Assembly (NCBI GenBank): GCA_020833645.1
Contig: JAJHRQ010000003.1
Location: 1 to 64,000, forward strand
Direction: 5' to 3'
From: Thermocrinis sp.
GTDB lineage: Bacteria; Aquificota; Aquificia; Aquificales; Aquificaceae
Length of the DNA: 64,000 bases
Shown here: in pieces, positions 6,348-35,845 of the stretch
Layout of the letters: the number at the start of each line of letters is the position of its first letter
Position numbering within the stretch: the stretch's first letter is position 1
Made by a program: the position numbers and the translations under genes
The notes under the pieces: generated by a model
Database searches by the model: none
The model's input: the letters and a program-made list of their open reading frames with translations, nothing else
Told to the model about the DNA's origin: nothing

Positions 6348-7000
6348 GAAACATAGACCACTTCGTTCATGTGGAAGAGCTTCCCCACCACCCCGGGGGA
6401 AAGTCTCTCCTCCAAACTGTTTAAAAGGTCTTCCTCGGACTTCTTAAGCTGGTAGTTGGTGGTGATGAGAGTACTAAGTTGATGATTGTAGCGGTATGTG
6501 ATGAGCAAAGAAAGAACCTCTATGCTCCAATCGGAGAGCCTTTCACTGCCTAGGTCATCCAGCACCAAAACAGGAACCCTCATCAAAAACTTTAGCATCC
6601 TACTGTATTTATCTTCCTCGGAGCCTGCGTAAAATCTAAGTTGAAAGAGCATCTCCTTAGTATCAAAGAAAAAGCCTCTTACCCTTTTTTGTTTGTATAG
6701 TGCCTTTAGGATACCCACTACCAAATGGGTCTTTCCCATCTGGGGAGGTCCCACTAAGGTAATGCCCTTGCCCTCCTCGGGATTAAAATTGAAAACAAAT
6801 TCCTTACAGACTTCAAGGGCTCTCCTTTGGGCTGGGGAGATGGGTTGGTAGTTATCAAGCTCCGCACTCCAGAACTTTTTAGGAATGTTTAAAAGCCTTT
6901 GAAAGTTCTCCTCCTTAAACCTACATTGGCACAGTTCAACCACATTACCCTTATCCACAAAGCCCGTTCCCTTACAGATTGGACAGTTTTTGTCTGCCAT
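6344..7000 (-). CDS. DnaC/IstB-like AAA+ ATPase (helicase loader family) with N-terminal Cys motif
   Basis: Walker [12 protein letters not shown], Walker [12 protein letters not shown]-terminal [10 protein letters not shown]...CQC. Confidence 0.8.
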
Positions 7001-7042
7001 GGTATTATATATATATGAGGTTATTCTAAAAATATAAACCTA

Positions 7043-7070
7043 TTGAAAGGTTTTTGGAAAGTGATATAAT
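7043..7070 (+). promoter_or_regulatory. Promoter inside repeat element A
   Basis: TTGAAA (7043-7048), 16 nt, TATAAT (7065-7070); same arrangement in copy D. Confidence 0.6.
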
Positions 7071-7077
7071 TTTTTCC

Positions 7078-7324
7078 AATGCAAAGCTTTCAGAGCTTGC
7101 TGGATACCCGTTGTGGGGCCACTGGAAGGAACCCTGAAGACGGGAAGGATTGGACAATCCTTGCCATTGTCCAGCAGGTTCTGAAGGTAGCCCTCCTCTT
7201 CCCTGTTCTTGAGAGGAGAATACTCCTCTCCTCCCGCAAGGGAGCGTGGGACAGGGTGATGGAAGGGTTAGTTCCCTTTGAGGCTGGGGGGACGGTCCCG
7301 ATAAGGGATTTTTAGAACAGCCTC
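7078..7324 (+). ncRNA. Putative structured RNA of repeat element A
   Basis: CTTTCAGAGCTTGCTGGA pairs with TCCAGCAGGTTCTGAAGG; GAGAGGAG-AATA-CTCCTCTC; CTCCC-GCAA-GGGAG; CCCTGTTC/GGACAGGG; end hairpin. Confidence 0.65.
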
Positions 7325-7356
7325 TGGTATTATATTAATCCCACGGGGAGAAAAAG

Positions 7357-32903: not shown

Positions 32904-32996
32904 AGCCCATAGGGGTGTGGGGCAGGGTGAGGAGTAGGTTAGTCCCTTTATCCGCTGGAGGCTTTTTGATAAGGGATTTTTGAAAGTATCCTCCAG
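32904..32996 (+). repeat. 3' remnant B of the structured repeat element
   Basis: gtggggcagggtgagg...ttagtcccttta...CTGGAGG ctttttgataagggatttttgaaagtat CCTCCAG; end hairpin with compensatory stem. Confidence 0.7.
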
Positions 32997-33527: not shown

Positions 33528-33580
33528 GACTGTCGTTATTCCGCCGGGGTATCCCGATGAGGGATTTTTAGAACAGCCTC
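33526..33580 (+). repeat. 3' remnant C of the structured repeat element
   Basis: GAGACTG...TCCCGATGAGGGATTTTTAGAACAGCCTC overlaps and follows the DUF29 stop. Confidence 0.65.
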
Positions 33581-33815
33581 AAAAGTCCGTTGCCTGAAAA
33601 AGGCTACTGGCTTATACTTAATCAAAACCTACAAAGGAGTTTTGCCATGAGAGAATGCCTAAGGCTGATAACCGAGAGGCGGTCAATTACATTCTTTGAC
33701 CCAAACAGAGAAGTTCCCAATGAACTTATAAAGGAGATTTTAGAGATCTCCACCACCGCACCCTCCGGATACAACCTCCAACCTTGGGAAGTGGTAGTAG
33801 TAAAGGACAAGGCCG

Positions 33816-34113
33816 TTCTAAAAAACAAACCTATTGAAAAGTTTCTGGGAAGTGATATAATTTTATCTGTGCAAAGCTTTCAGAGCTTGCTGGATGCCCG
33901 TTGTGGGACCACTGGAAGGAACCCTGAAGACGGGAAGGATTTTAAAATCCTTGCCATTGTCCAGCAGGTTCTGAAGGTAGCCCTCCTCTTCCCTGTTCTT
34001 GAGAGGAGAATACTCCTCTCCTCCCGTGAGGGAGTGTGGGACAGGGTGAGGAAAGGGTTAGTTCCCTTTGAGGCTGGGGGGACGTCCCGATGAGGGATTT
34101 TTAAAACAGCCTC
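33816..34113 (+). mobile_element. Full-length copy D of the structured repeat element, inserted in the nitroreductase gene
   Basis: Near identical to copy A; left hairpin, TTGAAA-N16-TATAAT, long structured RNA, terminal GAGGCTG...CAGCCTC hairpin; no ORF of recognisable family. Confidence 0.8.
33869..34113 (+). ncRNA. Putative structured RNA of element D
   Basis: 18-bp stem 33877-33894/33960-33977, CTCCC-GTGA-GGGAG, GAGAGGAG-AATA-CTCCTCTC, AAAGGG-ttagtt-CCCTTT, TCCC-gatga-GGGATTTTT. Confidence 0.65.
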
Positions 34114-34501
34114 ACATAGTGTTTATCGCAAACCCAAGGGCAGGCTTTGAGCACGTGGATAAGGTTTTGGACAGCTGGGTGGAGCTTGGCTACATACCCA
34201 AAGAAGCAAAGGAGAAGCTAAAAGAGAACATCCAGAGGGGATGGACCGACAGAGAGAAGGCTGTGAGAAAGGCTATAAGGGATACCGCCCTCTTTTGTAT
34301 GACGGTTATGATCGTAGCAAGGGCTTATGGGCTTGAGACCCATCCGATGGAGGGCTTTGACGAAGAGAGATTAAAGGAGTTCTTGGGGGTAGATAAGGAT
34401 AAGGTTATACCCGTTATGCTTGCCATAGGATACAAGGACCCTCAAAGGGAGCTACTTCCAAGGGCATACCGCTTTAAGTTTGAAGAATTTGGCAGGTTTC
34501 T

Positions 34502-35845
34502 ATGAGGTTTATAAACACAGACCTAACCTGCAGGCTTGACGCCCTTCCCTGGACGGGCTTTCACACCAGGTTTGTTTTAGCCCTTGGCATCACTTGGGTC
34601 TTGGACGCCTTTGAAGTAGTCATAGTAAGTGCAGTCCTAAAGCCCATGGCAAAAGCCCTCCAATTTACCACCCAGCAGGCTTCTCTGATGGTAAGCGGTT
34701 TTCTCATAGGTGCCATATTAGGGTCCTTGATCTTTGGCTACTTGGCAGACAGGTTCGGCAGGAAAAAACTCTTTATTCTTACATTACTTCTGTATGCTGG
34801 GGGCACTTTTTTAACGGGCTTTGCCAATAGTTTTGAATCCGCCTTGCTCTTTAGGATCTTGGCGGGTGCTGGCTTGGGTGGAGAGTTTGCAGCGATCCAG
34901 TCCGCAATAGACGAGTTTGTGCCCGCCCGCCACAGGGGAAAGGTGGATGGCACCATCACCGCCCTTTGGAACTTGGGAAGTATTATGGCTTCTTTATCTG
35001 CTTTGTATCTTTTAAAGCAATTTGACGAAGGCTTTGCTTGGAGGATTGCCTTTTTTATTGGTGGTCTTTTGACCCTTTTGATCATATACATAAGGATATA
35101 TGTGCCCGAATCTCCCAGATGGCTCATCTCCAAAGGAAGGCTGAAGGAAGCGGAGGAGATCGTCAAAAAAGTGGAAAGAGAGGCGGGCATCTCTCCAAAG
35201 GTGGAAAGTTGTCAAATTCCCGTTTTTGAGGGTAGCATATGGGATGCCACCAAGCTGATCCTAACCAAATACTGGTGGAGGTTTCTCTTTAGTGCGTCGA
35301 TGAGTTTTACCATACTTACCACCTACTACGGCATGCTCGCCTTTCTACCCTTGGTTCTTTCAAAGGTCTATAATCTTAGCTCCAAGCAGGTCTCCGAGGT
35401 GCTCTTCTTCGGAAGTGTGGGGGGACTGATTGGGGGTCTTGTGGTAGCCTTTTTAAACGACCGAGTGGGTAGAAAGGTGCTTGGGGTTAGCATAAGCGGG
35501 CTCTCCGCTTTGGCGGTTTTTCTGTTTTTGCTAACGGACGCAAACCCTAAAGTTCTTTACTTTTTGTATTCGTTGATCGCTTTTTCCTTTGCCTCTGTGG
35601 CATACGTGATCGCAACGGAGATATACCCATCCTACATAAGGGCATACGCCATAGGGGTGCTCTCCGTTGTGGGAAGGCTCTCGGGTGCCTTTGCACCGGT
35701 GCTTGTGATAGCTTTGGCAAACCAAGACTACCGGCTTGGACTTTTGTGTATATCCCTCTTTTGGCTTGTGGGATTTTTTGCCTTTGTGATATACGCCATC
35801 AAGGGAAAAGAGACCAAGGGCATGCCCATAGAACAGATAAGTTGA
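34502..35845 (+). CDS. MFS transporter
   Basis: 447 aa, 12 TM; GYLADRFGRKKLFILTLLLYAGGTFLTGFA, FLNDRVGRKVLG. Confidence 0.9.
   Translation: MRFINTDLTCRLDALPWTGFHTRFVLALGITWVLDAFEVVIVSAVLKPMAKALQFTTQQASLMVSGFLIGAILGSLIFGYLADRFGRKKLFILTLLLYAGGTFLTGFANSFESALLFRILAGAGLGGEFAAIQSAIDEFVPARHRGKVDGTITALWNLGSIMASLSALYLLKQFDEGFAWRIAFFIGGLLTLLIIYIRIYVPESPRWLISKGRLKEAEEIVKKVEREAGISPKVESCQIPVFEGSIWDATKLILTKYWWRFLFSASMSFTILTTYYGMLAFLPLVLSKVYNLSSKQVSEVLFFGSVGGLIGGLVVAFLNDRVGRKVLGVSISGLSALAVFLFLLTDANPKVLYFLYSLIAFSFASVAYVIATEIYPSYIRAYAIGVLSVVGRLSGAFAPVLVIALANQDYRLGLLCISLFWLVGFFAFVIYAIKGKETKGMPIEQIS

Follow-up and report, generated by a model that had tools for sequence, protein, structure and literature searches.

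TnpB (the ancestor of Cas12), its omega-RNA and its target-adjacent motif (TAM) are already known, as are miniature inverted-repeat elements (MITEs). Guide RNAs also occur in mobile loci that lack a nuclease gene, namely the stand-alone omega-RNAs and HEARO RNAs of IscB. The known Fanzors ride eukaryotic DDE transposons, and the target duplication of these elements has been predicted to form part of the RNA scaffold (PMC10711439). Bacterial TnpBs were said in a 2023 paper not to ride DDE-type insertion sequence ends. Here we analyse a ~300-bp repeat from a Thermocrinis sp. genome (GCA_020833645.1), two copies of which, A and D, lie in the 64,000 nucleotides examined as a whole (positions 1 to 64,000 of contig JAJHRQ010000003.1, hereafter the window; all features below are on the + strand). 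The repeat is a MITE, probably from a group of TnpB elements mobilised by a DDE transposase, in which some members carry a guide RNA alone and are served in trans. The original prediction, a reading of the sequence before any search, had proposed a non-autonomous mobile element retaining an omega-RNA-like RNA, with the 3′ flank as its presumed guide. That much stood, whereas the IS200/IS605 vehicle and the terminal hairpins it assigned to the element did not.

Copies A (7024–7324) and D (33816–34113) are 93% identical to each other, and BLAST found 32 matches to the repeat in this Thermocrinis-group genome, so the repeat itself proved real. Five of the matches are MITE copies, four near-complete and a fifth with an internal deletion; 20+ partial matches cover the last 150 bp of the repeat and are the 3′ ends of a longer, 1.64-kb element. 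Further copies of the repeat are present in sister genomes. Alignment of all copies placed the MITE ends at 17-bp terminal inverted repeats, GAGGCTGTTCTAAAAAT and ATTTTTAGAACAGCCTC, which moves the element boundaries to 7017–7324 for A and 33809–34113 for D. In D, the left inverted repeat is degenerate (AAGGCCGTTCTAAAAAA, 33809–33825) and the right one occupies 34097–34113. The AAACC..GGTTT hairpin formerly read as the left end overlaps the −35 box and is not retained in other copies. Target duplications, reported as not obvious, are present: A is flanked by TGGTATTATAT at 7000–7010, followed by six extra base pairs (ATATAT), and again at 7325–7335. With inverted repeats and duplications identified, IS605 terminal hairpins were rejected.

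The longer element explains where the MITE would have come from. The last ~245 bp of the MITE correspond to the 3′ end of the 1.64-kb element, which has 20+ copies and whose homology to the repeat spans its 3′ 150–240 bp. It carries the same 17-bp inverted repeats and a single gene, for a 522-residue TnpB-family protein, and no transposase. The protein matches TIGR01766 (1.5e-16) and the guided_TnpB model NF040570 (3.8e-12, under its curated cut-off). The RuvC residues D225, E288 and D357 are invariant in an alignment of 20 relatives, and the ratio of nonsynonymous to synonymous substitution rates (dN/dS) of the gene is 0.09. An AlphaFold model matches Cas12k, Cas12f and ISDra2 TnpB. A phmmer search of the Protein Data Bank with one TnpB sequence gave no match, whereas a profile search of the same database did. 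From its RuvC D-E-D residues and its TnpB/Cas12f homology, we assign the predicted protein to the TnpB family.

The RNA at the 3′ end of both elements is conserved as RNA. In D, a promoter-like TTGAAA-N16-TATAAT sequence at 33834–33861 matches 11 of 12 consensus bases, where shuffled sequences give 0.2 such sites, and its −10 box is retained in most aligned MITEs. The predicted omega-RNA scaffold would extend from a start set by the promoter to the right end (33869–34113). This stretch folds at −122.3 kcal/mol, against −87.0 ± 5.2 for shuffled sequences (z = −6.8, 0 of 200), bearing out the folded RNA with a long first stem and the hairpins already listed for it. A covariance model of the MITE RNA, which matches D at 33965–34113, also detects, mostly at E values of 1e-7 to 1e-12, the 3′ ends of the TnpB genes of IS605-like relatives whose protein is 45% identical, and found nothing in the TnpB-free sister genome G051. 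Because of these matches and its position, we regard the RNA as homologous to TnpB omega-RNA, that is, as a predicted conserved structure at the tnpB 3′ end that stops at the element boundary. An Rfam search, at the gathering threshold and then up to E = 1, returned no family match at the element.

Base-pair changes and coding constraint agree with this assignment. RNAalifold on a mixed, gapped alignment of TnpB elements and MITEs was uninformative, so helices were counted on separate alignments. TnpB-element helices contain 34 two-sided pair changes, against 7.7 in shuffled alignments and 7–21 when the helices are slid; the MITEs, with fewer sequences, contain 10 against 4.2. Since these counts are based on one structure and on related sequences, they are supporting rather than final. 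The synonymous rate (dS) of tnpB is 0.573 outside the RNA and falls to 0.214 in the part of the gene that overlaps it. The encoded TnpB residues, 442–522, are predicted to be disordered, as expected if this stretch of DNA serves the RNA. We do not claim that the GAGGCTG/CAGCCTC terminal helix is essential, because three of its seven pairs are broken in half of the MITE copies. The terminator-like hairpin described at the right end turned out to consist of a 4-bp hairpin and, after it, the inverted repeat's own run of T, and a terminator scan found none.

A pattern search for the ends uncovered a third type of element with the same inverted repeats, a 934-bp insertion sequence flanked by the 10-bp target duplication GCGAAACAGT and encoding a DDE_Tnp_1 transposase (E = 2e-12). 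Duplications of TnpB elements and MITEs are 9–13 bp wherever they can be read cleanly. The MITEs thus have what is expected of miniature derivatives of a DDE insertion sequence: the inverted repeats of the autonomous element, a target duplication and no transposase. Their 17-bp inverted repeats and 9–13-bp duplications are not the ends of IS200/IS605 or IS1341 elements. The search for matching-end TnpA and TnpB genes found TnpB elements with the same ends, but no Y1 TnpA (PF01797) in this genome (G000, 88% complete) or in nine of ten relatives, with control genomes positive. Because of the inverted repeats, the target duplications and the absence of a Y1 TnpA match in this genome, we do not class the TnpB elements and MITEs as IS200/IS605. 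The common ends suggest instead that the MITE is mobilised by the DDE transposase.

If the RNA is an omega-RNA, as its resemblance to that of TnpB suggests, the guide would lie immediately beyond the right end. Under the canonical TnpB rule, in which the guide begins there and a TAM precedes its target in the empty site, alleles lacking the element should have a motif exactly 5′ of the right-flank sequence. Right flanks from 27 elements in this genome were compared with six sister genomes, in which 24 uninterrupted sites were readable. The four bases directly 5′ of the flank sequence read GNCA at 19 of the 24 loci, whereas the other 19 offsets together give 4 of 456; every locus has C at −2, and 22 have A at −1. 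This test was not wholly blind, because the left flanks of some of these elements were where the motif had first been noticed. At 16 of the 24 loci the element's own site lacks a readable duplication, and GNCA is still found at 11 of them. In D, where the left duplication has been lost, the uninterrupted G053 allele reads GCCA directly before ACATAGTGTTTAT, as predicted. In A, the TAM-like GCCA lies left of the element (6996–6999) and is retained at the uninterrupted G053 and G054 sites. The predicted guide of D would be ACATAGTGTTTATCGCAAAC (34114–34133), its length of ~20 nt assumed from known TnpBs, and that of A would begin with the right copy of its duplication. We conclude that a TAM-like motif stands before the putative guide sequence at uninterrupted sites, which supports the earlier designation of the 3′ flank as guide.

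The motif also has an orientation. Among TnpB elements with verified duplications, GNCA lies directly 5′ of the left duplication in 15 of 16 and on the right in 1 of 16; for such MITEs the counts are 10 and 0 of 13, giving 25 left and 1 right when pooled. Counted by ends, the ratio of left to right is 43:3 for TnpB elements and MITEs and 5:10 for the DDE insertion sequence (p = 7e-6), which inserts beside a TGTCAA-like motif on either side. The base at −3 is T in 14 of 15 DDE sites and in 21 of 43 TnpB/MITE sites (p = 0.002). A left-only motif is not expected of a symmetrical transposase alone, whereas selection by a TAM-requiring RNA-guided nuclease would produce one.

These observations are probably best accounted for by a cycle in which the MITE, with a promoter-driven omega-RNA as its sole cargo, derives from the 1.64-kb elements encoding a TnpB-family RNA-guided nuclease and no transposase. 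The DDE transposase (IS4/IS5-like, PF01609) would move both in trans through the 17-bp ends, making the 9–13-bp duplications. Transcription from the left end would yield an RNA scaffold stopping exactly at the right end, with the host sequence that follows (duplication and flank) as guide. TnpB expressed from full-length elements would bind this RNA, including, in trans, that of the MITEs, and cut the uninterrupted allele beside 5′-GNCA. The inserted allele would escape cutting, since on its left side the match to the guide is limited to the 9–13-bp duplication. Repair of the cut empty allele may then copy the element back, restoring or fixing it, a retention step that we take from the description of IS200/605 TnpB (PMC11870625).

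The elements could also be ordinary MITEs of the DDE insertion sequence, with GNCA and its left position reflecting target or end asymmetry of the transposase and the RNA a functionless leftover of tnpB. Such an account draws on the DDE insertion sequence itself, which inserts beside TGTCAA at a distance fitting a 9–12-bp duplication, and on a difference inside the inverted repeat between the left and right ends of TnpB elements and MITEs, which makes an end-specific bias conceivable. We nevertheless think it unlikely, given that the motif occurs on either side of the DDE insertion sequence and at the left of the others, that T at −3 is far more frequent at DDE sites, and that leftover sequence would lack both the synonymous-site constraint in tnpB and the pair-preserving changes. 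That the MITE matters through a short peptide, a C-terminal piece of TnpB, is highly improbable. A frame starting at RTGCAAAGC is open in many copies, but its dN/dS of 1.35 indicates no coding constraint and several copies contain stops and frameshifts, on which grounds we rejected a peptide-coding MITE; the matching TnpB tail is, moreover, the part predicted to be disordered.

It is distinctly unlikely that TnpB and its RNA help to choose or make the insertion, which would be RNA-programmed, TnpB-directed transposition outside Tn7/CRISPR-associated transposons and IS110. This reading arises because GNCA has one orientation, unlike the TGTCAA of the DDE insertion sequence, because MITEs with a guide RNA alone use it too, and because no related transposase was found in some of the genomes. 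Quite improbable, in our estimate, is the version in which TnpB with its RNA selects or makes the insertion, driven by RuvC or targeted as a ribonucleoprotein to GNCA, with the DDE insertion sequence related to these ends or parasitic on them. The motif does adjoin the duplication directly, with a base preference unlike that of DDE sites, and some genomes that have TnpB elements with intact duplications gave no match to a related DDE protein, PF01609 or a Y1 transposase. We know of no TnpB that transposes DNA, however; this same genome holds a DDE transposase with the same ends, and the missing transposases may be lost, divergent or of families not searched.

Several points weigh against our preferred reading, that of DDE-mobilised TnpB elements with guide-RNA-only MITEs. 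Its main weakness lies in the DDE control: both ends and a verified duplication are available for a single DDE copy only, and because the orientation comes mostly from single ends, an end-specific bias could be hidden. Part of the motif (TGTCAA) is the target preference of the DDE insertion sequence itself, GNCA was read from insertion sites rather than from a cleavage assay, and at one locus (L140) the motif lies on the wrong side. The AlphaFold model of TnpB is moderately confident (pLDDT 73, pTM 0.49), and in the alignment TnpB has no cysteine motif (C4 zinc finger) between RuvC-II and RuvC-III, which is missing in the IS605-like relatives too. Finally, four genomes with TnpB elements that have inverted repeats and target duplications (G053, G030, G033 and G039) yielded no relative of the DDE protein, PF01609 or Y1 TnpA; either their mover has been lost or has diverged, or TnpB does more than assumed.

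Well-supported branches of a tree force at least two changes to account for the inverted-repeat state. Where relatives lack inverted repeats, their ends are IS605-like and follow GGAGG directly. In other Aquificales genera (L115–L135, L141–L142), TnpB is ~45% identical, and the elements start after this Shine-Dalgarno-like GGAGG and finish in GGTTNACCAGG; their apparent insertion sites are ribosome-binding sites. Another genus has a MITE belonging to a second TnpB family with inverted repeats (L236:1501–1817, G049), with the duplication AGAACCCTTA after GCCA. An 88-kb IMG/VR contig classed as viral (L320) encodes a TnpB 83% identical to the Thermocrinis family, and may represent either a carrier phage or chromosomal sequence that was misclassified.

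Within the window, D lies inside a gene that we take, from a reading of its translation and not a search of the product, to be nitroreductase-like. Its 5′ part occupies 33590–33808 and its 3′ part 34114–34505, and ~66 bp between them were lost together with the left duplication. The homologous gene carries the same insertion in sister genome G054 and is uninterrupted in G053; a scan of viral contigs with a piece of this gene found no match. Close upstream of D are two right-end remnants, one at 33552–33581 (L028, 97% over 30 bp) and a degenerate one at 32912–32985 (L030, 74%), which suggests repeated insertion in this stretch. In A, the promoter-like TTGAAA-N16-TATAAT was read from the sequence at 7043–7070, and its position places the predicted omega-RNA at 7078–7324, with the RNA model matching 7175–7324.

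Compared with IS200/IS605 and IS1341-type elements such as ISDra2, the elements described here share a TnpB-family protein, an RNA that overlaps the tnpB 3′ end and stops at the right end, a presumed right-flank guide and, on the left, a motif that lies 5′ of the target. They differ in having DDE-type inverted-repeat ends and 9–13-bp duplications in place of subterminal hairpins and no duplication; the duplication separates the motif from the left end, and the genome yielded no Y1 TnpA. Bacterial MITEs of DDE insertion sequences are likewise short, with inverted repeats, target duplications and no transposase, but consist of just the ends, whereas these carry a conserved structured RNA with its own promoter. 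The stand-alone omega-RNAs and HEARO RNAs are also guide RNAs without a nuclease gene; here the partner would be TnpB, not IscB, and the ends are of DDE type. In Fanzor1/Fanzor2* elements, as here, a TnpB homologue is the sole gene of inverted-repeat, target-duplicating elements that are presumably moved in trans (PMC3627910, PMC10711439), but ours are bacterial, their variable duplication appears to open the guide and not to belong to the scaffold, and miniature derivatives with a guide RNA alone occur alongside. The guide logic could thus survive a change of ends, with the duplication as the first guide bases and the motif before it. Judging from the miniature elements, a guide RNA on its own may act as a selfish mobile unit that is served in trans, and both ideas are testable with existing TnpB assays on the Thermocrinis proteins, which come from thermophiles. 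In contrast to Yoon et al., we find bacterial TnpBs on inverted-repeat, target-duplicating elements, a state that has arisen at least twice in Aquificales.
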